DNA from: a virus
DNA length: 42,427 nt
Virus record (IMG/VR): IMGVR_UViG_3300025423_000039
Span: 1-42,427 of that record
Strand: one strand, 5' to 3'
How positions within the stretch are numbered: position 1 is the stretch's first letter; the number at the start of each line of letters is the position of its first letter. The position numbers and the translations under genes are program-made. The notes below the pieces were generated by a model. That model saw only the letters and a program-made list of their open reading frames with translations, did no database searches and was not told where the DNA came from. Below are positions 9,380 to 34,851 of this stretch, in pieces.

Positions 9380-12300
9380 ATGCCTCGTTATGAAATAACT
9401 TCGCCTGATGGTCGTAGGTTTGAGGTAACAGCGCCAGAAGGTGCAACGCAAAACCAAGTCTTGGCTTATGCGCAAGCTAACTTTGGAGCTCCTGCTAGTA
9501 AAGGCACTCCTGGTCAAATGGCTGTTGAGGACAATGCCTTATATGAAGATGCTACAAATCCATTGCAAGGCATTCAACAAGTTGCACCTACACAGGCGGG
9601 GCAACAAATAAAAGCGCCTGTAATTCCAAACCCAGTGCAACAAGTTGCACCCCAAGAACCTAAAGAAGAACAGCCTTGGTATTCTGGTATTGCCAAGTTT
9701 GGTCAAGATCAACAAAAGAAACGTGAACAACTTACCAAAGCCGCAGTTCCATTTGCACAAGATGTTGGAGCCGCTATTGCCGCAACTCCTTTGGCATTTG
9801 AGGCAGGAGCTCAAGCATTGTCTAAAGGTTCAGATCCTAAAGCCTTAACGGGAAATGATTGGAAGCACGACTTTATTGCCGAACAACGTGCTTTGGTTAA
9901 AAAGAATGCTGAGAATCCAGAACTTAAAGATGAATATCTATTAGGTGTTGACAGAGCTAAGATTAGAAATTTACCACAAAATGTGGCATTTTCTGTATTA
10001 TCTATGGGATCGAGCTTAGCAGGTGCGGCAGTTGGATTAGTTATTCCAGTTCCACTTGCAACTGAAGCAGGTGCGGCGGCGGCAGGTGCGGCGGCGGCTT
10101 ATCGTATGGATACCAATGGATTCTTACGCGATATAAGAGAAAAATCAGATGATCTTTCTATAAAGGCAACAGGCAAACCATTGACTGATGAGCAATGGCT
10201 TAAAGTAGCAAAAGATTACGAATCATTAGTTAGAGAACACGGCGCATGGGAGGCACTCCCAGAAGCCATAGGAAATGTAATTGGTATTAAATTAACTGGG
10301 GCTATATTCAAAGAAGCAGGCCAAGGACTTATGGGCGTGCTCAAGTCTTTTGGTGCTGGCGCGTTAGAGCTCGTAAATGAGCTTGGCACAGAAACCATCA
10401 CACAGATTGGTCAGCACAATACTGAGCTTGCCGCTGGAGTTAATGACGATCCTAACGCTAAACCAAGATCATTTACCAATCCTGATGATATTTGGAAGTC
10501 TGCTAAAGAAGTAGCGCCAGATGTTCTTTTATTGACTGGTGCAATGAGCGGTGGAGCTCACGTTGCTGGTTCTATTTATAACTCAACAGATTATGCTAAG
10601 ACTAGAGAACTTGCAAAAGAATTAAACGCAAAAGATTTCTTAGATACAAAAACGCCTGAAGGTTTATTGGCATTACAAAATGCGGCACAAAAACAATTTC
10701 AAAGCCCGCGCACAAAAGGCGATGAAATTTCTCCTTTCCAAACTGTAGCAACGCCTGGTATTAATCCTAATCAACCGCCAGAGCCTCCAGAAGAAGAGCA
10801 AGCACCTGGAGCCCCTCCTGCAACGCCTACGCCCCGCGCTGGAGCTCTTCCTGTTGATAAAGATACGCAAGCTATGCTGGATGAGTTACAAGGAAAGCCA
10901 GCAAAAGAAAATGTTGATGCAGAAGAACTACAAAACAAAATAGAAGAAAACGGCATACCCATTAAAGATAAAACTGATGCCGATAAGTTATTTTCTAATG
11001 GGCATCCTATTTATGCTTTTCATGAGTTAGACGAGCAACCAACATTGGTTACAAGTCAAGATATGTTGGACAGTTATACGCCTGATCAATTGGTTGCATT
11101 GCCAATAGAACAAGCCAAACCAACAAAAGAAAATACTCCTATTGCTGATATTAATGAAAAGAATCTTAAAGGCCGTTTTGATGGAATTTTTAGCGGTAAA
11201 GATTTTGCTTCTGGAAATGAAGATGAGGCTTGGTACTCTCCAAAAACGAATAAACTAACTACTGAAGGGGTTGATGGAACACCAGTTCAACACTATGCAG
11301 GAGATAAAACTGCTACTGGACTGACAAATGTAACTCCAATTAATACACCAGAAGAGGCAAAAGCGGCGCTTGATGCTGGCAAATCTTTTGCTACTGTACA
11401 AGAAGGAACTGATCCTTTTAAACCTGTAGAGACAAAACCTGTAAAAACAAAGCCTTCAGGTAAAAAACCAGTTCAGAATAAAGACAATCCAATACAAACC
11501 TTTGATGCGGGAAATAATACAGAAGTTAGAGTATTTCCTAATGATAAAGGATATATAGCAAACTTTTACGATAAAGATTCTGGTAAGTACATAGGCGGCA
11601 AAATATTTCCAACTAATAATTTTGGCGATCAAGCATTGCCAAAAGCATTGGAATTTGCGCAAACCGAGGCTGACAAATCTAAGAAGATGACTGGTGAAAC
11701 TCCAGAAACACAACAAGTTGCACCCCAAACCCCGCAAGTGCAACAAGTTGCACCTACTGAAGTTCAAGCTAACCCAACTTCTACAGTTCAACCGTCTGCT
11801 GATGTGCCCCTAGACGAAAAAGCCAAGGCTAAACAAGACTTGGAAGATGCGTTAGGAGATTTGTCTTTACTCATGGGTAAAGGCGGTCGATTAAACATTG
11901 TTCCTGAAGACGAACAAAAATTAATGCCTATTCTTACAAAGCTGATGGATGCGGCTTTCAGAATGGGTTATATCAAGTTTAAAGAAGCGGCCAAGTTTGT
12001 AATGGATATGATCCGTTCCAAGATTGGTAAAGATGTTGCAGACCAAGTGTCATTGGATCACTTGCAGGGCGCTTATATTGGCATGGCTGGTAAATATCAG
12101 GACAAAGGTGCAGATAACAAGAAAGATGTTATCTCTGTTGAGTCTTTGAATGAAATCCATAACGAAGCTCCAGCAACTGCAAATATAGATATTAATACTC
12201 CTCAAGGGCAGTTTCATGTTGCTACACAGATTGGCGCATTCTTTCTTGAAGGCGGCAAGTTTGAGAATATCAATCAAGCTAGAGCAAAGATTGAGGAAAT

Positions 12301-15300
12301 CACAGGACAAAAGATACCGCCAGGAACTAATGAGGCAAAGTCAGCAGATGAAGCTATCGAAGTCGGAGTTGTTCTTGCGGCCAGACAAATTGTAGGACAA
12401 GGCGGTAAACCAGAGCAGATATACGATCAATTGGTAAACCTATATGGTAGACAGCCTAATTTATCTGTAAGAAGTTCTGAAAGCGTATTGCATCAAGCTT
12501 ACTCAACACCAGCGCCCCTAGCGTACATTGCATCTCAATTAGCGGGAATCAATTCAAATACAAAAGTTTACGAGCCTACTGCTGGTAACGGTATGCTTTT
12601 GATTGGGGCTAAACAAGAAAACATTTATGCAAACGAGTTGCAACCTGGGCGTGCGGCTATTCTTGAAATGGTGTTACCCAATGCAAGCGTTACTGATTTT
12701 AATGCGGCTAAATCAATTCCAGGTGGCGCTGTTGATGCAAGAACAATGGATGTTGTTATTGCCAATCCACCATTTGGGGTGATCAAAGATAAAGAAGGCA
12801 AACCAGTTACTCATGATGCTCATTGGTATAACACCAAAGAAATAGATCATGCTATAGCATTTAGAGCGCTACGCACAATAAAAGATAATGGTAGAGCTGT
12901 GCTTATTGTTGGCGGCGTTATGGGCAAGACCGATGATGCCCGCAGAGAGGATTACCGAGGTAAAGCCAAACGTGATTTTTATTCAGAGCTTTATAGAAGA
13001 TACAACGTAGTAGATCACTTTACCGCCAGTGGAAATTTATATACAAAACAAGGTGCATCATATCCAGTAGACATTATCGTAATTGATGGCGTTAGAAATG
13101 GAGCGCCGTTGGTTAATGATAAAGGTGAAATGCAAACTGCAAGAGCCTTACCTGCCTTTGATTTGCCAAAGGTATACACAACATACGGTCAGTTAAAGGA
13201 GAAATTAGATGAAAACACCTTGGTATCCAGAGGGAATGAACGCCCCAGTGGAGTTGATAGCGGTGTACTCGCCGAAGGAAACGTTAACGAACAAGGAGTG
13301 GCTGGAGGCGTTAGCGGACAGGGTGTCGAACCTGGCACAACAGGAGGAGAAACCACTGGAGGCGGCGAACAGGGCGTGTCAGAAAATGGACCTACCACAG
13401 GTGGACAACCCGAATCAACTAGGGGAGGCGCTGGTAACGTACAACCTAAACCTGGTAACGCACCTAAACCTAGCGCAGGAGGAGAAGCAGTTCCCAGCAA
13501 AGGTGAAGTCAAACCTACTAGCGGCAAAGGTACTGAAGGAAACAAGCCTGGAGGAGTGGGTGGAGTTAGCCTTGTCTCTGGTGAACGTGTCGGGTCTGGA
13601 TTAGTAGATAGAGCTGGACAAGAAACTGAAACAGCAACCCAAGTTAGTTACCCTCCGCATTCTGGAGCTAAATCTGTAGGCACATTGGTTCCCAACGCAA
13701 TGGCTCAAGCTATAGATAAGGCACTTTCTAATCTTGAAAAAAAATATGGCAACATAGATAGATTTGTTGCTGAAAATCTTGATATTGATGTTGATACATT
13801 ACAAGAAAATTTTTCAGCAGAACAAGTGGATGCTATTGCATTAGCAATTATGAATGCTGAAATGGGCAAAGGTTTTATCATTGGAGATCAGACTGGTATT
13901 GGTAAGGGCCGAGTTGTTGCGGCTATGATTAAGTACGCTTTATTGCAAGACAAAATACCAATTTTTGTAACTGAAAAACCTAATCTTTATTCTGACATGA
14001 TAAGAGATTTAGATGATATTGGTATGACTGATAGCATTGGTTTAGATAAACTTCATTCAAAAATTTTAATTACAAATGGAGATCAAAATATTCCTTACAC
14101 GTTATTGCGTGAAGTTAATAATGAAATAATTGAAAATAATCTAAATCTTAAAGCACCCAAAAAAGGCGCTGAATATGATGCAATATTAAAATCATTAAGA
14201 GAAAAAGATGATCTTGGTAATTACAAGGTTATTTTTACAACTTATAACCAGTTACAAACACAAAAAGGAAAAGAAACAGAACGTCAAAAATTTATTCGGC
14301 ATTTTGGCGCTGGTAATTATTTAATATTTGACGAAAGCCACAATGCAGGTGGAGCAGGTGAAACTCAAGCTAGAACAAAAGAACAAAGAGAAAATGCTAA
14401 AGAAGGCAAGAGTTTGGTTCAAGGCAGAGCCGCTTTTGTTCGTGAATTAGTGCAAAATGCTTTTGGAACATTTTTTTCATCTGCAACATATGCAAAACGT
14501 CCAGATGTTATGGATTTGTATGCCAGCACTGATATGAGTCTTGCTGTAGATAAGTTGGCAGACCTAGCGCAAGCAATCAAAAATGGCGGCATTCCTATGC
14601 AGCAAACAGTTGCAAGAATGCTTACCGAAGTTGGCCAATACATTCGCAGAGAACGTACATTTGCAGGAGTTTCTTACGATACAAAAGAAGCTAAAGTAGA
14701 TAAACAAACTGCTGAAAACATGGCTTCATCCATGAGGAAAGTTCTTGATTTTTCAAGAGCAAAAGAACTTGTTGTAAAAGATTTGCAAAAGTCTTTTGAT
14801 AGACAAGGTGGGAAAGTTAGCACTGAAGGAGAAAAAACACAGGTGCAAAGCGCAAACTTTGGGTCTACCATGCACGTTTTAATTGATCAAATGCTTTTAG
14901 CACTTAAAGCAAAAAGCACTGTTGATCATGCAATTGAAAGATTAGAAGCAGGAGAAAAAGTAGTTATTACTGTAGCTAATACGATGGGTTCATTTTTGCA
15001 AACTTATGCAGATGAAATGAATTTAAATGTAGGTGATTTAGTTGATTTGTCATTTAAAAACCTTTATTTAAATTATCTTGAAAAACAAAGATTTGTTACC
15101 ATAAAAACTGGTAATAAAAAAACCAAATATAGATTAACAGATGCAGATTTAGGGCCAGAATTAACAAGGCAATTTGAAGATATTAAAAAGTTTATTGAAG
15201 GAGCTGGATTTAGTGAAGCGCCAATTTCACCAATTGATTATATTCATAACGCTTTGCGAAAGGCTGAATATAAGACAGAAGAAATTACAGGTCGTACTAT

Positions 15301-18300
15301 TATTTTAAATTATTCTGGTAATAAACCTACATTAGCAAAAAGAGTAGCAAATATAAAACAGCGCGTCAATGCTGTTAAAGCATTTAATAACGGAGAGGCT
15401 GACGTTATTATTCTTAACCAAGCTGGATCAACAGGCATATCGTTGCACGCTTCTAGCAAAGTTGATGATAAACGTAAACGCCATATGATACTTGCCCAGG
15501 CCGAAAAGAACATTGATACGCATATGCAAATGTTGGGGCGCGTACATAGAACAGGACAAGTCATAACGCCTGCATACTCCCAAATGATGGCTGACATTCC
15601 TGCTGAAATGCGTCCAGCGGCTGTGTTGCTTAAAAAGATGGCATCACTTAATGCAAACACAACGGGTTCTCGTAAATCTGCCGTTTCAACTGAAGGTGCT
15701 GTGGACTTTATGAATGATTACGGAGGACAAGTTTCGCAAGAGTATTTAAGGGATAACCCTGATATACACGAAGCAATTGGCGGTAAGAAGATTGTTGAGT
15801 TGCAAGATGATCCAACAGAAGGGACAGAAGCAGATATTCGTAGGCTCACAGGGTATGTACCAATATTACCAATCAAGCAACAAGAGGAAGTCTACAAAGA
15901 CATTATCGAGCGATACAACGAATTGTTGCAAAGAGAAGAAAGTATGGGTACTAATAAGCTCGAATCGAAAGCGCACGACTTAGATGCCAGGACGCTTTCA
16001 TCTAAGCCTATTACCGAAGATAAAAATGAACAAGGATCAAATTCCCCATTTGCTCAACCAGCAAACATGGAAAAGGTTGATGTTAAACGCACAATAAAGC
16101 CTTACTCTAAAGCAGAAGTGCAAGAACAGATTGATGAAAATTTGGAAGGTAAAAACCCAAAAGAAAAAGCCAAGGAAATGCTTGCCAGTTTAACTCCTAG
16201 AGCTAGTGAGTTTGGTAAACAAAGATTGGCAGAACTTGCAGAAAGCGGCGCTGACCCTACAAGGATTGCAGAAACAAGTCTTCAACACGAATCTCAAATT
16301 GGAAAAATCAAAAGTATTTTAGATACTTATCCTATTGGAACTCCAATTGTTCTCAAGAGTAAGAACGGCACGCTTATTTCTGGCGTTGTAACTAACGTAG
16401 AAAACAAGGGCAAGACAAAGAACCCATTGGCTGGTTCTGACTGGAAGATGCAAGTTGCGCTTGCTAACGGCGATGCAAAAAGCATTTCAATCAATTTCTC
16501 TCAAGTCAACAGCGTGTACGAGCTCAGAGAAGAGTCTGAAGTACCGTGGAACAATCCTGAGACAGATAAGTTTGAATACATTCCAATGATGGATTTGTTT
16601 GATAAAAGTGCAACTGTTAGGCGTGAGAAGCGATGGATGGTGACGGGCAACTTGTTGGCGGGCTTTGCGGCTGTCAACAATATGGGCCAGATTATGTCCT
16701 ACACCAAGGACGATGGCACAACAGGCCAGGGTATATTAATGCCCCGCACGTTTGACTTTGAAAAAGAAGAAAAGAGAGCCCCAGTTAAGCTTAACACTTT
16801 GCAGAAGGTGCAAGTATTTTTTGATGAATTTCAAAATGGAATTGTCCAAACAGAAGATGGATCATTAAAAATATCTAAACGTGGTGAAAGATACCAATTT
16901 ATTACGTCCAAGTCTAAGAGAGAAGGCGGCCAATACTATTTAGATTTAGGACTGACAAATTTTACTGGTACTTTCCATTCGTCTGGGCAACAAATGAATG
17001 CAGTCATTTATGACCATGAAAGAGGAAAAGAGGCAATTAAATATATTTTGCATGATATGCAAAAAGGATTGGTTGCGGGTAATTATAAAGATGAAGCTAG
17101 AGCACTTTTTGCACCCAAGGAAGAGTTCAAGCCGCCTTTGAGTAACTTTAGTCCTATCAATAACTTTACAAATGATAGAGAACAAAACATTAAAGACTTG
17201 CAGGCCGCTAAGATTAAAAAAGCCGCACTCTTTAAAAAGTTTGCTGAAGGAAAGGCTGGAATACCAGAACAACAATCAGCTAATTTAATTAATGCCTGGG
17301 TGCGTGTATTAGAAGAAACAATTGCGGCCACAAAGCCAGAGAAGAAGAGCGCTAAAGATTTCTTTGTAAAAGCAACCAAAGATTGGGGCGAAGGAAAGAT
17401 CAGCGATTCTGTTTACTCAACAATCAAAACTTTGTATGAGAAGTATCCTTTTGTTCTTGAAGGGCTGTCTTTATCTGTCAAAAAAGGCAAGGAAGATAAA
17501 TCAGCGGCAGGGGAATTTGATGCCCTACAACGAGTTATAAACCTATTCAAAGGTACAACTGGTGTTACAGATGCAACAACCATCCGTCACGAGCTTACAC
17601 ACTCATTAGAACAAATGATGGACAAGGACGCATCCAAGTCTTTGGTCAAAGAATGGGGTATCCAAGTTAAAGCCAAGATGAAGTCTGACCAGACCAAAGA
17701 AGGAAAAGCATTCTTCAAAGCCTTAACAGATTTCTATGCTAATCCATCTTTGGAACAATACAACGCATTAATTGCGGCATTGCCTGACCAGTCTTATTAC
17801 CAATACGTTAACCCATCCGAATACTGGGCTGTTAACGCTGAGAAACTATTGAACCAAAAACTAGGTGGTGGCTGGGATAGATTTAAGTTAGCCATTAGAA
17901 AGTTGTATGAAGGGCTTAAATCACTTGTTGGTGCAACTAATCAATACGCTTTGCATAAAGTGTTTGACGACATCATGACTGCAAAAGGCACTCGTATGTC
18001 TGATGGTGCTTTGCGTGACTATGTTGATGCAAGCACAATGGCACTTCAAAATAAGAACTTCAGAAACTTTAAAGGAGCTCCAGCGCCCAAAGCAACGTGG
18101 GATGTATCTGAGCCATTTAAACAAGGAGATTGGGAGCACAGACTTGTAGATAAACATCTTGATACCAAACAAATAGTTAAAGATATTAATGAACAAGTTG
18201 GTCAAATACAAGATGATTGGGACCCATACCTTAAGTTAACTTTAATGCCTGGTCGTAAAGCTGACCAAGTGCTCAAGTTTTTAGAAGAAGAAGGTAATCC

Positions 18301-20764
18301 TTTTATTAAAAAGATGAATGATTTGGGCGTAACTGTTGACGAGTTTGAAAAATACTTACACAACCGTCATGCAGAAGAATACAACGATTTGATTGCATCT
18401 CGTAATGCCGCATTGCCTGATGGCGGTTCTGGTATTTACACCAAAGATGCGCATGATTATTTAAATAACTTGCCTGTTGATAAGAAGAAAAAGTATCAAG
18501 ACTTAGCTAAAGATATAGACAACATTGTTAAAGAAACGCAAGACCTATTGGTGGCAAGCGGTACTGAAAAGGCTGAGACTATTCAGGGTTGGCGCAATAA
18601 GATGCCTTACTATGTTCCTCTCAACAGGGATCAGGAAGAACTAGACTTTGCTGGAAATTCTGTAACAGGATTTGGTAAGGGAATCAGCACTGGTGGTGCA
18701 TTTACCAGGGCTGGTACAGGATCAACCAAGACTGTTGTTGATATTTTGAACAATGTCTTCCTCCAGCGTGAGCGTGCAATTAACAGGGCTGAAAATGCTC
18801 GTGTTGGTAAGGCGCTTATTGGTTTAGCACTTCAAGCACCCAATACAGATTTTTGGTTGCCTATTAATCCCAAAGCTATTCGCAATAAGAAAAAGTTGTA
18901 TCAGAACCTGATAGACATGGGTTTAACGCAACAAGATGCGGATAACTTTATTAAAGAGCCTACTGTAGCCAGTATAGACAAGTTAACAGGCCAAGTTCAA
19001 TACAGAGTTAATCCAGTGCTCAGAGGTTCTAAGAACGTCATTACAGTACGCGTAAACGGAGAAGATTGGTTTGTGTTCTTTAACCCTGGTAATGAGCGTG
19101 CTATGCGTATGGCAGAGGCGCTTAAGAACATGGATAGCAGTTCCGTGGCTGAAATATTGAGCGGTGTTGCAGAGGTAACTCGCACAATGGCGGCCATGAA
19201 TACACAGTACAACCCGTTGTTTGGTCCTTGGAATTTGGCGCGTGACTACGCAGAAGCCAGTATTACGCTTGAGGCAACTCCAATTGCAGGCAAAAACGAA
19301 GAACTTAGAAAAGGCGTTACTCCTGCAATGCGTGCCATTTATAGAATTGGCAGAGGAAAAGTAGCCACAAATCCTGAAATGAAAGCATGGATGGATTTAT
19401 TTGATAGATATAAAAAAGCTGGCGGCCTGACAGGATTCCGTCAACAATTTAGTGGATCAAATAAAAAAGTAGCTATTGTTGATCGAGAGCTTAAAAAATT
19501 AAATAAAAGCAATGTAGGAAAAGTAACCAGCAGTGTCATGGACTGGCTATCAGACTATAACGAATCTCTTGAGAATGCTGTACGTTTAACCGCATTTAAA
19601 ATTGCTTTAGATCAAGGCATTAGCGAAGAAAGAGCCGCAGAGATTGGTAAAGAAATAACTATTAACTTTGATCGTAAGGGCCAGTGGTCTTCAAATGCGG
19701 CGGCGTTGTTTGCATTTTTTGGCAGTAGTATTCAAGGCACTGCAAAAATGGCCAGAATAATGCTTGCAAAGAAAAATGGTAAAACGGAACTTACTAATTT
19801 AGGGAAAAAGATTGTTGCTGGCGGTATATTCTTTGGCGTTATGCAAGCTATTGCTTTGAAGATGGCAGGTTTTGACGAAGATGAGCCGCCAGAGTATTTA
19901 AAGAATAAAGATATTATTATTCCAACTTTCAATGGTAAATATTTGAATTATCCAATGCCACTAGGTTATAGCGTATTCCCAAGTATTGGACGCATCATTA
20001 CTGAATATATGTTATCAAACGATAAAGACCTTAAAAAATCTACTATTAGTATTTTGAGTGCTGTTACAGATGCGTTTAATCCGTTAGGTGGTGGTGGATT
20101 TATTCAAAACTTTACCCCAACAGTAATAGACCCATTGTTTGGTTTAATTGAAAATAAAGATGCGTTTGGAAGACCAATTGCTAAGCCTGTAAATGAAATG
20201 AAACCTACGCCTGGATACGAACGTAACCGCGAATCGGCCAGCGCATTCAGTAAAGGTCTTTCATATGCGTTGAACTATATCAGTGGCGGCGGCAAATACG
20301 GCATCGGTTTGGTTAGCCCAACAGCGGATCAGCTTGATTATTTGATGGGTCAATATGCTGGTGGTGTTGGACGTGAGGTTATGAAGACCGTAGACTTAGC
20401 ATCTGCACCATTTAAGAATGAGCCAATTCCATCTTATAGAATTCCTATTGTTGGAAAGTTTTATGGTGAATCAAAATCAGATGCGGCCGTTCAGGATAAG
20501 TTTTATAAGAATATTATCAAAATGTCTGAGTACGAAGGTATTATCAAACGTATGGAAACAAACAATGCTGATCCTGAAATGTTCTTTATTAAACATCCTA
20601 AAGCTAGATTTTATGATGATGCCAATAAGTATGAGAATGAAGTCAGGAAACTTTCTATTGAAAGAAGGCAATTGATTATGAACAAGGCAAGTAAAGAAGA
20701 GCTAAAGGATAATCAAATGCAAAAGATTGAATTGATGAAAGAATTTAATCAGCAAGTTAGATAA
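9380..20764 (+). CDS. Giant polyvalent protein: N6-methylase, strawberry-notch-type helicase, HELTH peptidase motif, LPD38-like
   Basis: This 3,794-residue protein is a chain of domains. Residues 1-35 form a small MPRYEITSPDGRRFEV-type module. About 195-400 is Gly/Ala-rich and hydrophobic. About 1040-1250 is an N6-adenine methylase-like domain (EPTAGNGML for AdoMet binding, NPPF at 1129-1132). About 1270-1415 is a Gly-rich linker. About 1430-2080 is an SF2 strawberry-notch-like ATPase (GDQTGIGKG at 1502-1510, DESH near 1651, LGRVHRTGQ near 2050). HELTH at 2737-2741 is a zinc metallopeptidase motif. About 3270-3500 looks like LPD38 and contains a hydrophobic helix. Such polyvalent proteins, of which P1 DarB is the known model, are injected with DNA and counter host restriction. 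Four palindrome copies fall only in linkers. Confidence 0.85.
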   Translation: MPRYEITSPDGRRFEVTAPEGATQNQVLAYAQANFGAPASKGTPGQMAVEDNALYEDATNPLQGIQQVAPTQAGQQIKAPVIPNPVQQVAPQEPKEEQPWYSGIAKFGQDQQKKREQLTKAAVPFAQDVGAAIAATPLAFEAGAQALSKGSDPKALTGNDWKHDFIAEQRALVKKNAENPELKDEYLLGVDRAKIRNLPQNVAFSVLSMGSSLAGAAVGLVIPVPLATEAGAAAAGAAAAYRMDTNGFLRDIREKSDDLSIKATGKPLTDEQWLKVAKDYESLVREHGAWEALPEAIGNVIGIKLTGAIFKEAGQGLMGVLKSFGAGALELVNELGTETITQIGQHNTELAAGVNDDPNAKPRSFTNPDDIWKSAKEVAPDVLLLTGAMSGGAHVAGSIYNSTDYAKTRELAKELNAKDFLDTKTPEGLLALQNAAQKQFQSPRTKGDEISPFQTVATPGINPNQPPEPPEEEQAPGAPPATPTPRAGALPVDKDTQAMLDELQGKPAKENVDAEELQNKIEENGIPIKDKTDADKLFSNGHPIYAFHELDEQPTLVTSQDMLDSYTPDQLVALPIEQAKPTKENTPIADINEKNLKGRFDGIFSGKDFASGNEDEAWYSPKTNKLTTEGVDGTPVQHYAGDKTATGLTNVTPINTPEEAKAALDAGKSFATVQEGTDPFKPVETKPVKTKPSGKKPVQNKDNPIQTFDAGNNTEVRVFPNDKGYIANFYDKDSGKYIGGKIFPTNNFGDQALPKALEFAQTEADKSKKMTGETPETQQVAPQTPQVQQVAPTEVQANPTSTVQPSADVPLDEKAKAKQDLEDALGDLSLLMGKGGRLNIVPEDEQKLMPILTKLMDAAFRMGYIKFKEAAKFVMDMIRSKIGKDVADQVSLDHLQGAYIGMAGKYQDKGADNKKDVISVESLNEIHNEAPATANIDINTPQGQFHVATQIGAFFLEGGKFENINQARAKIEEITGQKIPPGTNEAKSADEAIEVGVVLAARQIVGQGGKPEQIYDQLVNLYGRQPNLSVRSSESVLHQAYSTPAPLAYIASQLAGINSNTKVYEPTAGNGMLLIGAKQENIYANELQPGRAAILEMVLPNASVTDFNAAKSIPGGAVDARTMDVVIANPPFGVIKDKEGKPVTHDAHWYNTKEIDHAIAFRALRTIKDNGRAVLIVGGVMGKTDDARREDYRGKAKRDFYSELYRRYNVVDHFTASGNLYTKQGASYPVDIIVIDGVRNGAPLVNDKGEMQTARALPAFDLPKVYTTYGQLKEKLDENTLVSRGNERPSGVDSGVLAEGNVNEQGVAGGVSGQGVEPGTTGGETTGGGEQGVSENGPTTGGQPESTRGGAGNVQPKPGNAPKPSAGGEAVPSKGEVKPTSGKGTEGNKPGGVGGVSLVSGERVGSGLVDRAGQETETATQVSYPPHSGAKSVGTLVPNAMAQAIDKALSNLEKKYGNIDRFVAENLDIDVDTLQENFSAEQVDAIALAIMNAEMGKGFIIGDQTGIGKGRVVAAMIKYALLQDKIPIFVTEKPNLYSDMIRDLDDIGMTDSIGLDKLHSKILITNGDQNIPYTLLREVNNEIIENNLNLKAPKKGAEYDAILKSLREKDDLGNYKVIFTTYNQLQTQKGKETERQKFIRHFGAGNYLIFDESHNAGGAGETQARTKEQRENAKEGKSLVQGRAAFVRELVQNAFGTFFSSATYAKRPDVMDLYASTDMSLAVDKLADLAQAIKNGGIPMQQTVARMLTEVGQYIRRERTFAGVSYDTKEAKVDKQTAENMASSMRKVLDFSRAKELVVKDLQKSFDRQGGKVSTEGEKTQVQSANFGSTMHVLIDQMLLALKAKSTVDHAIERLEAGEKVVITVANTMGSFLQTYADEMNLNVGDLVDLSFKNLYLNYLEKQRFVTIKTGNKKTKYRLTDADLGPELTRQFEDIKKFIEGAGFSEAPISPIDYIHNALRKAEYKTEEITGRTIILNYSGNKPTLAKRVANIKQRVNAVKAFNNGEADVIILNQAGSTGISLHASSKVDDKRKRHMILAQAEKNIDTHMQMLGRVHRTGQVITPAYSQMMADIPAEMRPAAVLLKKMASLNANTTGSRKSAVSTEGAVDFMNDYGGQVSQEYLRDNPDIHEAIGGKKIVELQDDPTEGTEADIRRLTGYVPILPIKQQEEVYKDIIERYNELLQREESMGTNKLESKAHDLDARTLSSKPITEDKNEQGSNSPFAQPANMEKVDVKRTIKPYSKAEVQEQIDENLEGKNPKEKAKEMLASLTPRASEFGKQRLAELAESGADPTRIAETSLQHESQIGKIKSILDTYPIGTPIVLKSKNGTLISGVVTNVENKGKTKNPLAGSDWKMQVALANGDAKSISINFSQVNSVYELREESEVPWNNPETDKFEYIPMMDLFDKSATVRREKRWMVTGNLLAGFAAVNNMGQIMSYTKDDGTTGQGILMPRTFDFEKEEKRAPVKLNTLQKVQVFFDEFQNGIVQTEDGSLKISKRGERYQFITSKSKREGGQYYLDLGLTNFTGTFHSSGQQMNAVIYDHERGKEAIKYILHDMQKGLVAGNYKDEARALFAPKEEFKPPLSNFSPINNFTNDREQNIKDLQAAKIKKAALFKKFAEGKAGIPEQQSANLINAWVRVLEETIAATKPEKKSAKDFFVKATKDWGEGKISDSVYSTIKTLYEKYPFVLEGLSLSVKKGKEDKSAAGEFDALQRVINLFKGTTGVTDATTIRHELTHSLEQMMDKDASKSLVKEWGIQVKAKMKSDQTKEGKAFFKALTDFYANPSLEQYNALIAALPDQSYYQYVNPSEYWAVNAEKLLNQKLGGGWDRFKLAIRKLYEGLKSLVGATNQYALHKVFDDIMTAKGTRMSDGALRDYVDASTMALQNKNFRNFKGAPAPKATWDVSEPFKQGDWEHRLVDKHLDTKQIVKDINEQVGQIQDDWDPYLKLTLMPGRKADQVLKFLEEEGNPFIKKMNDLGVTVDEFEKYLHNRHAEEYNDLIASRNAALPDGGSGIYTKDAHDYLNNLPVDKKKKYQDLAKDIDNIVKETQDLLVASGTEKAETIQGWRNKMPYYVPLNRDQEELDFAGNSVTGFGKGISTGGAFTRAGTGSTKTVVDILNNVFLQRERAINRAENARVGKALIGLALQAPNTDFWLPINPKAIRNKKKLYQNLIDMGLTQQDADNFIKEPTVASIDKLTGQVQYRVNPVLRGSKNVITVRVNGEDWFVFFNPGNERAMRMAEALKNMDSSSVAEILSGVAEVTRTMAAMNTQYNPLFGPWNLARDYAEASITLEATPIAGKNEELRKGVTPAMRAIYRIGRGKVATNPEMKAWMDLFDRYKKAGGLTGFRQQFSGSNKKVAIVDRELKKLNKSNVGKVTSSVMDWLSDYNESLENAVRLTAFKIALDQGISEERAAEIGKEITINFDRKGQWSSNAAALFAFFGSSIQGTAKMARIMLAKKNGKTELTNLGKKIVAGGIFFGVMQAIALKMAGFDEDEPPEYLKNKDIIIPTFNGKYLNYPMPLGYSVFPSIGRIITEYMLSNDKDLKKSTISILSAVTDAFNPLGGGGFIQNFTPTVIDPLFGLIENKDAFGRPIAKPVNEMKPTPGYERNRESASAFSKGLSYALNYISGGGKYGIGLVSPTADQLDYLMGQYAGGVGREVMKTVDLASAPFKNEPIPSYRIPIVGKFYGESKSDAAVQDKFYKNIIKMSEYEGIIKRMETNNADPEMFFIKHPKARFYDDANKYENEVRKLSIERRQLIMNKASKEELKDNQMQKIELMKEFNQQVR
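9572..9650 (+). repeat. Two palindrome copies in the N-terminal linker of the giant gene
   Basis: ATTCAACAAGTTGCAC (9572-9587, 14/16) and a perfect copy (9635-9650), encoding IQQVAP and VQQVAP between the N-terminal module and the hydrophobic region. Confidence 0.9.
11708..11753 (+). repeat. Two palindrome copies in a linker of the giant gene
   Basis: ACACAACAAGTTGCAC (11708-11723, 13/16) and a perfect copy (11738-11753), 30 bases apart, encoding TQQVAP and VQQVAP in a Pro/Gln linker before the next domain. Confidence 0.9.
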
Positions 20765-31741: not shown

Positions 31742-31897
31742 TCATGCCGTTTCCCTTGCGTTGATGTCAACCCTGTCGGATAGTTCGTCAACTATATCTA
31801 CTTCAGCGAGTTTACTTTCCTCGCATTTGTAAATGTAAACTGGTTTGGTTATATCGTCCACTTGTAAAAGTTTACGGATTAAATCTGCTACTGTCAT
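31742..31897 (-). CDS. Small phage protein, 51 aa
   Basis: MTVADLIRKLLQVDDITKPV followed by a strand (YIYKC) matches a common short phage family in which an MTVxxLIxxL helix comes before a small beta sheet. It overlaps the preceding stop as ATGA and lies 24 bases before the next start. Function is unknown. Confidence 0.65.
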   Translation of the reverse strand: MTVADLIRKLLQVDDITKPVYIYKCEESKLAEVDIVDELSDRVDINARETA

Positions 31898-32223
31898 GCT
31901 AAATCCCTTTCAATCATTTCTTTTTTAAGCTTTTCATCACTCCAAGAGTTGTAACCCTCAAATCCATTATTTAAGGTTTCATATAAATAAGCTTTTAGAT
32001 CGTTTTTGTTGTTCCAGTCATCAATATCATCTTCAATCAGCAAATCTATCATTTTTTTGCGCGTAACAGTCTCTAGCTTTTCTATTTCTTCAATTTCCAT
32101 TATTGAATAATCGCTAATTAATCTCTGCATATCGGCAAACGCGATAGCATCTTCGTTACTATCAAATATGCCCAAAGCCCTAAAGCCATCAACTGGGTTG
32201 CCTGTAATTATTGTGTATTTCAT
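31894..32223 (-). CDS. Hypothetical acidic protein, 109 aa
   Basis: The first 40 residues (KYTIITGNPVDGFRALGIFD, then ANED-like helix) resemble short phage proteins of unknown function; the rest is strongly acidic and helical. An overlapping ATG and TGA couple it to both neighbours. No catalytic motif is visible; it could be an acidic DNA mimic, but that is speculative. Confidence 0.6.
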   Translation of the reverse strand: MKYTIITGNPVDGFRALGIFDSNEDAIAFADMQRLISDYSIMEIEEIEKLETVTRKKMIDLLIEDDIDDWNNKNDLKAYLYETLNNGFEGYNSWSDEKLKKEMIERDLA

Positions 32224-32447
32224 TTTGGAATCCTTTCGTCAATTACATATTCAATTGCATACTCAACCGAATACCATGTTGTGCCGATTTCAGCGTCATG
32301 CGCGTCAGCCATTACATTTAAAACGCGGATTTTCTCATCATCGGTCAGAACAATATCCATGTTTTCGCAAACCATTGAAACATCATCTGTGCCCCACTGA
32401 ATTTGCATCACCCAATTTCCGTCCTCATTTTGTATAACTTTAGCCAT
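32220..32447 (-). CDS. Conserved small phage protein, 75 aa
   Basis: I start at 32447 (MAKVIQNEDGNWVMQIQWG), which overlaps the preceding gene's end by 8 bases and matches the usual start of this phage family; three upstream codons are less likely. VCENMDIVLTDDEKIRVLNV and the end DAEIGTTW are also typical. Acidic, soluble, function unknown. Confidence 0.7.
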   Translation of the reverse strand: MAKVIQNEDGNWVMQIQWGTDDVSMVCENMDIVLTDDEKIRVLNVMADAHDAEIGTTWYSVEYAIEYVIDERIPK

Positions 32448-32601
32448 TTTCTTCACCTTTATTTAATTCTTCCTCTATCCATGCCATTTGGGTACATATC
32501 TCATTCCATTCTTCGTCATATTCTGCTTGCCCTTCAGGGATACAGGTTTCCCTGTACCCCTCTAAGGCATTCCAGATTGACGTTAAATCAATCTCGGCCA
32601 T
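32440..32601 (-). CDS. Small acidic protein, 53 aa
   Basis: A 53-residue frame begins MAEIDLTSIWNALEGYRE and is rich in Glu and Trp. It starts shortly after the previous gene (32605) and overlaps the next start by 8 bases. Several acidic residues would make it a possible DNA mimic or protein inhibitor, but no family is recognised. Confidence 0.6.
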   Translation of the reverse strand: MAEIDLTSIWNALEGYRETCIPEGQAEYDEEWNEICTQMAWIEEELNKGEENG

Positions 32602-32604
32602 AGG

Positions 32605-32895
32605 TTATCCTTTGTAAGATGCCCAATCAAGCGGGCGGTAGTTTGCGTAGTTTCGAATCGGTGTGTTCTCTTGGTAAATTGATTCGTATTTAAATTGCTT
32701 GCCCGCCATAGCCATTGCTCTAGCAAAAATTGCATAGTCGCAATCCTCTTCCAAGTAAACAAACGGGGTATCCAGTCGAGTTTTGATATACGAATAATGA
32801 CTGATGGCACTTGCGACTCCTAAGTCGATCAATTCTCTTAGTGGAACTTCTAACCAAGCGTGGCCTGGGTCTTCAAAAAATTTGTAAGTTTGCAT
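32605..32895 (-). CDS. Conserved phage protein, 96 aa
   Basis: The sequence includes HAWLEVPLRELIDLG, the segment ISHYSY, and FVYLEEDCDYAIFARAM, which are typical of a short family found near replication genes of many phages. An AAGGAAAT site precedes ATG 32895. It is the first gene after hammerhead ribozyme 1, whose cleavage would leave a 25-nt leader. Function is unknown. Confidence 0.7.
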   Translation of the reverse strand: MQTYKFFEDPGHAWLEVPLRELIDLGVASAISHYSYIKTRLDTPFVYLEEDCDYAIFARAMAMAGKQFKYESIYQENTPIRNYANYRPLDWASYKG

Positions 32896-32914
32896 TTGTA
32901 TTTCCTTTGTAGTT

Positions 32915-32966
32915 GATTAAGACCCTATCGCTAGGGTTTCGCCCAATCAGGGCTCGTCAGTTAATC
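32915..32966 (-). ncRNA. Hammerhead ribozyme 1 (type I)
   Basis: On the minus strand: stem I GATTAA/TTAATC, core CUGACGA, stem II GCCC/GGGC, GAAA, stem III CCCUA/UAGGG with a GCGA loop, then GUC. Cleavage is predicted between 32921 and 32920. The TGA stop of the upstream gene (32957-32959) is part of the core CUGA. Every conserved core base is present. Confidence 0.95.
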
Positions 32967-33154
32967 TCTTTGCCTAGGTCTTTGGCCAGTTGCACCAAGA
33001 TTTCTTTTCTTGTGCCCTTGTAGCCCATTTTCTTAAGAATCTTCAAAATAGACGTGTGACGGTTTACTTTCATGCCCGCAATCTCAAGTTTTAGTCCTTG
33101 ATAAAGCGTCAACATCCTGAAGTGCTCAATCTGGTCGGGTGTTGTTAATATCAT
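32957..33154 (-). CDS. Small phage protein, 65 aa
   Basis: I take ATG 33154 (MILTTPDQIEHFRMLTLYQG), one base after the upstream TGA; a GTG four codons earlier is also possible. LEIAGMKVNRHTSILKILKK and GYKGTRKEIL give a small helical basic protein of a family seen in phages. Its stop lies within the core of hammerhead 1. Function is unknown. Confidence 0.65.
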   Translation of the reverse strand: MILTTPDQIEHFRMLTLYQGLKLEIAGMKVNRHTSILKILKKMGYKGTRKEILVQLAKDLGKEIN

Positions 33155-33155
33155 T

Positions 33156-33515
33156 TCAATACTCACTTGGCAACATCATGACCACAAAATCACCTTTTTG
33201 CATAAAAAATTTGTACTCTCCGTCAGGGCAATCGGTGTAGCTAATTTTCTTAAGAAATATTTGTTCTTCGTCACCGTCCTCTGCAATGATCGTAGCCTTA
33301 CTATCGAGTGCAACAAGTTGCACCGTCATAAAATCATCAATCAAAGGCACAATCTCGCTTGCTACTATGTCAGTAAACCAGTAAGCGCCCGCTTGGTCAA
33401 TAAAGTATTTCACCCCATCCGTGATTCTCATGCTTGAGAAGATAGACGGCTTGTAATACCGTGTTGTGCCGATAAATTGGCCTAGTTCGCTTGCTAAATC
33501 TCTTGTAGTTTCCAT
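33156..33515 (-). CDS. DUF6876-like phage protein, 119 aa
   Basis: FIGTTRYY, ITDGVKYFIDQAGAYWFTDI and the end VVMMLPSEY are characteristic of the DUF6876-like family. A perfect palindrome encodes VQLVAL at about residues 65-70, a position where I would expect a conserved hydrophobic strand, so the site is fitted into a folded domain. It is the first gene after hammerhead 2. Function is unknown. Confidence 0.7.
   Translation of the reverse strand: METTRDLASELGQFIGTTRYYKPSIFSSMRITDGVKYFIDQAGAYWFTDIVASEIVPLIDDFMTVQLVALDSKATIIAEDGDEEQIFLKKISYTDCPDGEYKFFMQKGDFVVMMLPSEY
33308..33323 (+). repeat. Palindrome copy, perfect
   Basis: In the DUF6876-like gene; minus-strand reading gives VQLVAL. Confidence 0.95.
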
Positions 33516-33534
33516 TGTTATTTCCTTGTAGTTA

Positions 33535-33585
33535 ATCTAAGACGGCCTCTCGACCGTTTCGGCCTTACGGCCTCGTCAGTTAGAT
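33535..33585 (-). ncRNA. Hammerhead ribozyme 2 (type I)
   Basis: Stem I ATCTAA/TTAGAT, core CUGACGA, stem II GGCC-GUAA-GGCC, GAAA, stem III CGGUC-GAGA-GGCCG, then GUC; cleavage between 33541 and 33540. The upstream gene's TGA (33576-33578) is within the core. Both stem II and III loops are GNRA or near. Confidence 0.95.
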
Positions 33586-33725
33586 AGTTTGATGGATATG
33601 TCGCAGTCTTTGAGTTTGTTAGTCCTCAAGTATTGCTTTGCCCAATACTGCGCTCCCTCGAAAGTGTTGAAACGCTCCTCGCTTAACACTGTTTCGACTT
33701 GAATGATTTTGACTAGCCACATCAT
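33576..33725 (-). CDS. Small protein, 49 aa
   Basis: The protein begins MMWLVKIIQVETVLSEERFN, then TFEGAQYWAKQYLR, a common phage pattern in which WxVKI precedes a helix. It overlaps the previous stop and has a GGAG site. An alternative ATG in another frame (33731) gives a 37-residue product with poor composition and is disfavoured. Its stop falls in the core of hammerhead 2. Confidence 0.65.
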   Translation of the reverse strand: MMWLVKIIQVETVLSEERFNTFEGAQYWAKQYLRTNKLKDCDISIKLSN

Positions 33726-33901
33726 TGCTCATTCTCCTTTGGTGCAAACTTTTCAAATAAATCTGAAAAGGCCACAACAATTTTTATAGCGTTTTTGGCA
33801 TCAGCTTTGTAAAAGGCTTGTGCAATTGCGTATGCAAAACCGCCACCGCTCTTTTCCATGTTTTGTGCGCAAAGCAAGTAGTAGTCTCTGTCGTGTAGCA
33901 T
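33722..33901 (-). CDS. Small protein, 59 aa
   Basis: MLHDRDYYLLCAQNMEKSGG and FAYAIAQAFYKADAKNAIKI form a helical, slightly hydrophobic protein. The start has GGAGATC, and the stop overlaps the next ATG. The end carries KENEQ encoding the next gene's GGAG site, the same arrangement as in the rightward operon. Function unknown. Confidence 0.6.
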   Translation of the reverse strand: MLHDRDYYLLCAQNMEKSGGGFAYAIAQAFYKADAKNAIKIVVAFSDLFEKFAPKENEQ

Positions 33902-33910
33902 GGTGATCTC

Positions 33911-34054
33911 CTATATTGATAAGACAAGTAAATAGACCGTGCGTCCAATTGAGCAGTTACACATCTCATTGAGATACCAAAATGTATATCTCAGTCCAAA
34001 TGCTTTTATGTAGGCCTTGATCTGTAATGGGTCTTGTAAAACTGTTGTTAACAT
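33911..34054 (-). CDS. Small protein, 47 aa
   Basis: ATG 34054 follows AAAGGAAAT. MLTTVLQDPLQIKAYIKAFG leads into a short aromatic segment (YTFWYLNEMC) and CSIGRTVYLLVLSI. The mildly hydrophobic end is too short to be a clear membrane span. It lies 9 bases ahead of the next gene. No family recognised. Confidence 0.55.
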   Translation of the reverse strand: MLTTVLQDPLQIKAYIKAFGLRYTFWYLNEMCNCSIGRTVYLLVLSI

Positions 34055-34068
34055 TTGTATTTCCTTTA

Positions 34069-34275
34069 TTAAAGAACTTCAGTGACTGCTTCCAAAATAC
34101 TCATTTGATCTACTGCCAAATGACCGATCAAGTGCATGATGTCCAACTGCTCACCAATCACAATGCACTTTTTATCTTCGATTGTTTTACTAACAATAAA
34201 CTCTTTGAACCTGAATCCACTAATTTTTAATCTCATGTCATCAACACTCAATTTAAATTTTGCTTTTAATATCAT
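34069..34275 (-). CDS. Hypothetical protein, 68 aa
   Basis: I use ATG 34275 (MILKAKFKLSVDDMRLKISG), which has AAGGAAT upstream and follows hammerhead 3 by a 23-nt leader; an upstream frame would run into the ribozyme. The protein is a mixture of strands and one helix (DIMHLIGHLAVDQM). Function unknown. Confidence 0.6.
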   Translation of the reverse strand: MILKAKFKLSVDDMRLKISGFRFKEFIVSKTIEDKKCIVIGEQLDIMHLIGHLAVDQMSILEAVTEVL

Positions 34276-34292
34276 TTGTATTCCTTGTAGTT

Positions 34293-34342
34293 GCATAAGA
34301 CCCCTTTCGGGGTTTCGACTATTGAAGTCTCATCAGTTATGC
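34293..34342 (-). ncRNA. Hammerhead ribozyme 3 (type I)
   Basis: Stem I GCATAA/TTATGC, core CUGAUGA, stem II GACU/AGUC with loop UCAAU, GAAA, stem III CCCC-GAAA-GGGG, then GUC; cleavage between 34299 and 34298. The upstream gene's TGA ends at 34343, immediately before stem I. Confidence 0.95.
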
Positions 34343-34573
34343 TCAGAATGCGGTGCTACGAATCTCCTGTGCGTATTCGAACCGCAATTTGACCGTCTTG
34401 GATAGTTCTTTGAATGCCTTTGTGGGGTTGCCCTCAATGTAGTATTCAAGAATGTCGCCATCGTCCCATGCTTCACAAACTTCGTCCCAACCGCCTTTGT
34501 CGTAATGTTCCATTGCATAAGCCCGCATAAACCGAATGAAATCAGGCTCAGTCATATTTATTGCTAACATCAT
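34343..34573 (-). CDS. Small acidic protein, 76 aa
   Basis: The protein has MTEPDFIRFMRAYAMEHYDK and WDEVCEAWDDGDILEYYIEG, then a helical end. The family is found in phages and is acidic. GGAG precedes the start; the second codon is also ATG. It lies between hammerheads 4 and 3. Function is unknown. Confidence 0.65.
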   Translation of the reverse strand: MMLAINMTEPDFIRFMRAYAMEHYDKGGWDEVCEAWDDGDILEYYIEGNPTKAFKELSKTVKLRFEYAQEIRSTAF

Positions 34574-34589
34574 TTAATTCTCCTTATTT

Positions 34590-34641
34590 GTTTAAGACGG
34601 CCTTTCGACCGTTTCGCCTACTAAAGGCTCATCAGTTAAAC
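34590..34641 (-). ncRNA. Hammerhead ribozyme 4 (type I)
   Basis: Stem I GTTTAA/TTAAAC, core CUGAUGA, stem II GCC/GGC with a 7-base loop, GAAA, stem III CGGUC-GAAA-GGCCG, then GUC; cleavage between 34596 and 34595. The upstream stop TAA (34636-34638) lies in the 5' strand of stem I. Confidence 0.95.
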
Positions 34642-34851
34642 TTGATTGAAGCCCATCATCTGCACCCAAGCGTTTAGGTTGGAACGTGTCTTGAAGCAAA
34701 CAAACCCAATATCATTCTTGGAACAATCCGAAGATCCATCTATCTCCCAAACTTTGCAACCTGCAGGATATTGGTATACGGTCGTGCGGGTATAGTTTGT
34801 CGGCACTAAGTATTTTTTCCCTGTGTACTTATCAGCAAATAATTTGAACAT
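34636..34851 (-). CDS. Small phage protein, 71 aa
   Basis: First gene of the leftward small-gene operon. It begins MFKLFADKYTGKKYLVPTNY and has beta-strand character with two Cys (CKVWEI, DCSKND) and FVCFKTRSNL. Its start follows GGGAGTAAACAG. The stop codon contributes to stem I of hammerhead 4. No function known. Confidence 0.6.
   Translation of the reverse strand: MFKLFADKYTGKKYLVPTNYTRTTVYQYPAGCKVWEIDGSSDCSKNDIGFVCFKTRSNLNAWVQMMGFNQV

Follow-up and report, generated by a model that had tools for sequence, protein, structure and literature searches.

Type I hammerhead ribozymes at four gene junctions of a small-gene operon in a tailed phage, with predicted cuts between stop and start codons

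Introduction

Intercistronic RNA structures that divide polycistronic phage mRNA include the T7-type RNase III intergenic sites, which need a host enzyme and leave 5'-phosphate ends. Hammerhead ribozymes differ from these in being RNAs that catalyze their own cleavage. Perreault et al. (2011; PMC3088659) described prophage hammerheads clustered around single genes or short gene blocks, as in the Agrobacterium triple array around ardA, and proposed that they split long phage transcripts into single-gene mRNAs. Three tandem arrays cleave in vitro, and one triple array cleaves in E. coli (PMC3088659). A 2017 review (PMC6155905) restates the arrangement and leaves open what hammerheads do in prokaryotes and phages.

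Here we analyze a 42,427-base virus record (IMG/VR IMGVR_UViG_3300025423_000039, positions 1 to 42,427), referred to below as the window. It carries several same-strand hammerheads in series around single genes or short gene blocks of a phage, and the array belongs to the known kind, clustered phage hammerheads. The initial annotation regarded four in series as unusual, which does not hold in view of the prophage clusters in PMC3088659 and of fetched phage records that carry up to 15. The array differs from the clusters of Perreault et al. in that the phage falls in a group defined by its large terminase (TerL) and distantly related to HTVC027P, and in that the operon of small genes concerned adjoins the terminase small subunit gene. 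In addition, stop/cut/start spacing was measured here, and phage arrays of 12-15 copies were found. Clustering of phage hammerheads is already known; the stop/cut/start geometry is the new content, and no earlier report of it was found in the open-licence literature.

Results

The phage and its small-gene operon

The window encodes terminase, portal, helicase, primase and Erf-like annealing proteins, and is therefore assigned to a tailed phage. The closest TerL proteins are those of Pelagibacter phage HTVC027P (55% identity), 023Pt_psg01, DSL-LC04 and HTVC023P, and a DNA-level search for nearby annotated phages returned none. On the plus strand, a single 3794-aa open reading frame occupies 9380-20764. 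The small-gene operon lies on the minus strand, running from 34851 down to ~31.7 kb, and is divergent from the terminase small subunit gene. Its genes, hammerheads (HH1 to HH4) and the leaders between cut and start codon are as follows, in the direction of transcription.

34636..34851, minus strand: first operon gene, 71 aa, ends in HH4; no family found
34590..34641, minus strand: HH4, type I hammerhead; predicted cut 34596/34595; upstream stop TAA (34638-34636) within stem I
34574..34595, minus strand: HH4 leader, 22 nt, TTAAACAAATAAGGAGAATTAA; to the ATG with first base 34573
34343..34573, minus strand: small gene, 76 aa, family F4, between HH4 and HH3
34293..34342, minus strand: HH3, type I hammerhead; predicted cut 34299/34298; stop TGA (34345-34343) directly abuts stem I
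34276..34298, minus strand: HH3 leader, 23 nt, has AAGGA; to the ATG with first base 34275
33576..34275, minus strand: four small genes (68, 47, 59 and 49 aa) between HH3 and HH2
33535..33585, minus strand: HH2, type I hammerhead; predicted cut 33541/33540; stop TGA (33578-33576) within the CUGACGA core
33516..33540, minus strand: HH2 leader, 25 nt, has AAGGA; to the DUF6876 gene ATG with first base 33515
33156..33515, minus strand: DUF6876 gene, 119 aa, directly downstream of HH2; Pfam PF21781, E 5.9e-27
32957..33154, minus strand: 65-aa gene, ends inside HH1
32915..32966, minus strand: HH1, type I hammerhead; predicted cut 32921/32920; stop TGA (32959-32957) within the CUGACGA core
32896..32920, minus strand: HH1 leader, 25 nt, has AAAGGA; to the ATG with first base 32895
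31742..32895, minus strand: downstream small genes after HH1, without further hammerheads

The four genes between HH3 and HH2 are separated by gaps of at most 14 nt or overlap, with no ribozymes among them. Only DUF6876 (a family of unknown function) is a clear protein match in the operon; beyond it there were weak matches to families of unknown function. No sigma-70-like promoter upstream and no terminator at the operon end stands out, consensus scans yielding no more sites than shuffles, and a single operon transcript is therefore presumed.

Identity of the hammerheads

All four copies are complete type I hammerheads on the minus strand, as the initial annotation had proposed. The window has exactly four occurrences of the pattern CTGANGA-N-GAAAC-N-GTC, with 0.02 expected from shuffles, and a strict type I scan with stem pairing returned nothing from 3 Mb of random (Markov) sequence; on these grounds a chance origin of the motifs was rejected. 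Applied to 1.48 Mb of fetched loci, a large part of them retrieved for containing a motif of this kind, the same structure-aware scan gave 215 matches. By the definition taken from Perreault et al. (2011; PMC3088659), every copy has the core C3 U4 G5 A6 N7 G8 A9, G12 A13 A14, A15 and U16 H17, and the core-adjacent pairs N10.1-N11.1, N1.1-N2.1 and A15.1-U16.1 can form in each. Stems II and III have closing loops and stem I is open. Cleavage is predicted after C17 at 32921, 33541, 34299 and 34596, the same sites as first annotated.

A covariance model built from 14 sequences of other phages' hammerheads, with the window copies held out, recovers all four at 69.0, 68.0, 65.3 and 58.3 bits (E from 4.5e-16 to 3.3e-13); failed matches in such a search had been named as grounds for rejecting the motifs. 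This model found nothing beyond the four copies anywhere in the window, and no extra or degenerate hammerheads were found there with the two models tried. The expectation that Rfam models would hit all four copies was not borne out, as there are 0 matches in the window at the gathering threshold. In a restricted search, two copies score 31.9 and 23.4 bits with RF00163 (Hammerhead_1; threshold 34), and the remaining two have just weak RAGATH-1 or Hammerhead_3 scores. The gathering score is a search threshold rather than a structural criterion, and most relatives fail it too: RF00163 gives three type I hits at this score in 11 loci that hold dozens (L019, L021, L059 and eight others). The misses are attributed to a poor fit of the Rfam model to this group and not to false motifs.

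The window copies share with RF00163 the core CUGANGA / GAAA / UH, three stems, an open stem I and the cut after C17. They differ in their sub-threshold scores, in an AU-rich 6-bp stem I, commonly adjoined in the group by an A.A mismatch, in short stem II loops (UAAU or UCAAU type) and in a stem III of 5-6 bp with a tetraloop. With RAGATH-1 (RF03152) they share the hammerhead core and a UUA-CUGAUGA-like stem I, and matches are weak. Membership in RAGATH-1 was rejected, with the upstream hairpin absent and scores of 19.2-22.1 bits against a threshold of 56.3. Judged by sequence, fold, covariation and position, the four window motifs are genuine type I hammerhead ribozymes.

Covariation and predicted fold

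Covariation had been claimed from the window alone, and there stems I, II and III indeed vary between copies with pairing kept. In a set of 36 diverse phage copies, pairing holds in 97% of pair cells, compared with 66% in shuffles and 28-36% with partners slid, and changes occur on both sides in 14 of 16 pairs, so that the stems are maintained by compensatory change. Positions that the scan does not demand (I.5, I.6, II.4 and III.5) are paired in 95-100% of 151 distinct copies (44-75% in the shuffled control).

In all four window copies stem I is 6 bp and AU-rich, stem II is 4 bp with a 4-5 nt loop, and stem III is 5-6 bp with a tetraloop. Among the 151 distinct copies from all loci, 133 have a stem I of exactly 6 bp. 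The position beside it is an A.A mismatch in 101 of these 151, and pairing there is depleted (17 observed, 57 expected). This limit on stem I and the mismatch suggest, at the level of sequence, a length constraint or a tertiary contact, such as one of the stem I periphery with loop II, beyond the helices; a short stem I would also let the 3' product leave. For copies 1 and 3, the predicted minimum-energy structure matches the ribozyme fold. For copies 2 and 4 in isolation, a competing fold is more stable by 2.0 and 0.7 kcal/mol; during transcription, local hairpins would form before these competing folds.

Placement between stop and start codons

In the window, each of the four ribozymes either contains the stop codon of the preceding gene or is directly abutted by it. 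The predicted cuts fall 35-44 nt past this stop and 22-25 nt ahead of the next ATG, leaving a leader that has a Shine-Dalgarno sequence. The same placement was seen in loci picked by TerL or DUF6876 homology and not by hammerheads. In these, the upstream stop is at -16..+25 nt from CUGANGA in 31 of 34 hammerheads (14% of random positions), and a Shine-Dalgarno start follows 22-30 nt past the cut in 34/34 (7% of random positions at 15-40 nt); the loci are mutually related, so the 34 copies are not independent, and the random positions were drawn from hammerhead loci. Among the full set of 234 copies, 207 have the stop in this range and 148 have the start at 15-40 nt, the set having been fetched largely with a pattern containing TAACTGA, which biases the stop positions. 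Gaps at hammerhead junctions are 60-79 nt in 38/43 (median 62), against a median of 2 nt at other same-strand junctions. Every model hit in 80 TerL loci (36/36) is on the strand opposite TerL, which is the operon strand.

Distribution among relatives

On the TerL tree, hammerheads are present in all eight members of the window's own clade whose operon is covered. Over the whole tree they occur in 18 of 46 operon-covered loci and are absent from the operon in 28, a patchy distribution that needs at least seven gains or losses. The nearest isolates by TerL (HTVC027P, 023Pt_psg01, DSL-LC04 and HTVC023P) have no hammerheads genome-wide. Given the 28 relatives and four isolates without it, the device is dispensable. 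Hammerheads recur upstream of gene families DUF6876, F21 and F13, with a varying preceding gene, and one precedes DUF6876 in most relatives examined.

Whole-record counts with model R1 gave at least four hammerheads in 18 of 55 records with hits, two of which have 12; these records were mostly chosen for containing hammerheads, and the proportion is not an array frequency among all phages. The 39.8-kb phage contig IMGVR_UViG_3300042884_000166 (L019 / L249 / L250) has 15 hammerhead hits on one strand. The stop-ribozyme-leader pattern is visible at most of them, and some of the junctions are between larger genes. Other arrangements were also observed. A MAG contig titled Aliivibrio sp. (L173), which is probably a phage contig in a bacterial bin, has eight hammerheads in 5.8 kb. 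In phage contig L033, type I and type II hammerheads occur together, three of each, along with a glutamine riboswitch hit. At the junction F5->F7 of L083, L084 and L085, the place of HH1, there is instead a 66-nt gap with a perfect 10-bp hairpin.

An alternative hairpin element at equivalent junctions

At some of the corresponding junctions, namely those before F21 (L076, L093) and before DUF6876 (L076), the gap is as long as at hammerhead junctions but no hammerhead is present. Such gaps hold a hairpin element with a stem of ~13-15 bp around AnGCCC/GGGnnU, the 3' base of which is able to form new pairs downstream, giving a second hairpin that has an AUU loop. It was located in the following loci.

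L076: 6546-6595, 4412-4466 and 3373-3431
L093: 1083-1136 and 3120-3170, minus strand
L119: 760-812, minus strand
L154: 799-849, minus strand
L157: 3039-3094, minus strand
L251-L267

The V1 form is represented by 15 distinct sequences. Thirteen versions of the element align, with five covarying pairs, and a model of it found further copies in L157 and elsewhere. A search of Rfam returned no match to it. The upstream stop is at the 5' base in most copies, and a Shine-Dalgarno start lies 16-27 nt downstream in 14/14 model hits (16-29 nt over the loci listed). Candidate identities for the element are an RNase III site, a new ribozyme and a translational switch.

Discussion

The initial annotation held that the operon mRNA is cut into pieces. 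This stands as the best reading of the cut positions, because 4/4 predicted cuts lie beyond the upstream stop and leave 22-25 nt to the next start. We consider it probable that the four hammerheads are built-in processing sites of a small-gene phage operon, as their sequence and placement indicate. The cleavage of similar clustered hammerheads in vitro and in E. coli (PMC3088659) favors the processing reading. Weighing against it are the competing folds of copies 2 and 4, the lack of a standout promoter or terminator, and the 28 of 46 covered relatives whose operon has no hammerhead. Each ribozyme would fold as the operon is transcribed and cut the RNA after C17. The upstream message would retain its stop codon plus a folded tail that extends 35-44 nt past it and carries a 2',3'-cyclic phosphate, and the downstream message would start with a 5'-hydroxyl and a 22-25 nt leader carrying the Shine-Dalgarno sequence. 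Five translation-ready pieces would result: gene 1; gene 2; genes 3-6; DUF6876 with one gene; and the remaining genes. We infer both cleavage in vivo and one transcript spanning the operon. The benefit would be separate control of stability and translation for each piece, and the polycistronic transcript is probably able to divide itself into shorter mRNAs without the help of any enzyme.

Two further ideas build on cutting. The 5'-hydroxyl might resist 5'-monophosphate-dependent decay while the upstream 3' end is protected by its fold and cyclic phosphate. The product ends follow from hammerhead chemistry (PMC6155905), and the leader left by the cut is short and nearly constant. Such protection is a consequence of cutting and not an exclusive alternative to it, and we entertain it only tentatively as the function of the ribozymes. 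A refinement of the processing reading, which we find somewhat more doubtful, is that a ribosome terminating at the stop codon would sit on the 5' half of the ribozyme and prevent it from folding. Cuts would then occur only when ribosomes are sparse, and the ribozyme would report translation of the upstream gene. The stop lies in stem I, the core, the stem II loop or a few bases upstream in 31/34 homology-selected copies, it has the corresponding position at 4/4 window junctions, and in most copies of the alternative hairpin element, too, the 5' base holds the stop. However, the same geometry would arise from simple packing in a compact genome, because CUGANGA supplies a TGA in one frame and the usual preceding TAA supplies a stop in another. 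Literature searches on translation-coupled phage hammerheads and on end stability gave nothing on point. If ribosome gating is extended to the hairpin element, hammerhead and hairpin switch would be exchangeable intergenic RNA modules, each with a stop in its first helix, a leader of ~20-25 nt and ribosome-gated cutting; this scheme we hold to be unlikely. As a replacement module, the hairpin-switch RNA could be either a ribozyme of a new kind or a processing site for RNase III.

Two other explanations were weighed. That they are dispersed selfish or decaying repeats with no role in expression would accord with their patchy presence and the gains or losses that the TerL tree demands, but the cores are intact, stem changes are compensatory, both the strand and the position between stop and start are fixed, and every covered member of the window's clade has hammerheads; we regard this as very improbable. 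Nor do we give much credence to successive cleavage and ligation that would join the inter-ribozyme segments into circular or spliced RNAs, a scheme with an equally slight chance of being right. Cyclic phosphate and 5'-OH ends are ligatable and the idea was considered by Perreault et al., who nevertheless searched for such products and saw none (PMC3088659), and what lies between the ribozymes is normal coding sequence, each unit having start signals of its own.

For the processing reading, the fixed order of stop, ribozyme, cut, leader of ~25 nt and start, which recurs in many phages, is an indication that polycistronic mRNA is divided. The misses at the Rfam threshold imply that phage hammerheads are under-annotated. 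The regular placement of the hammerheads yields exact, testable 5' ends and makes their role testable, and relatives in which a different RNA structure occupies these junctions provide a natural comparison between routes to the same end.
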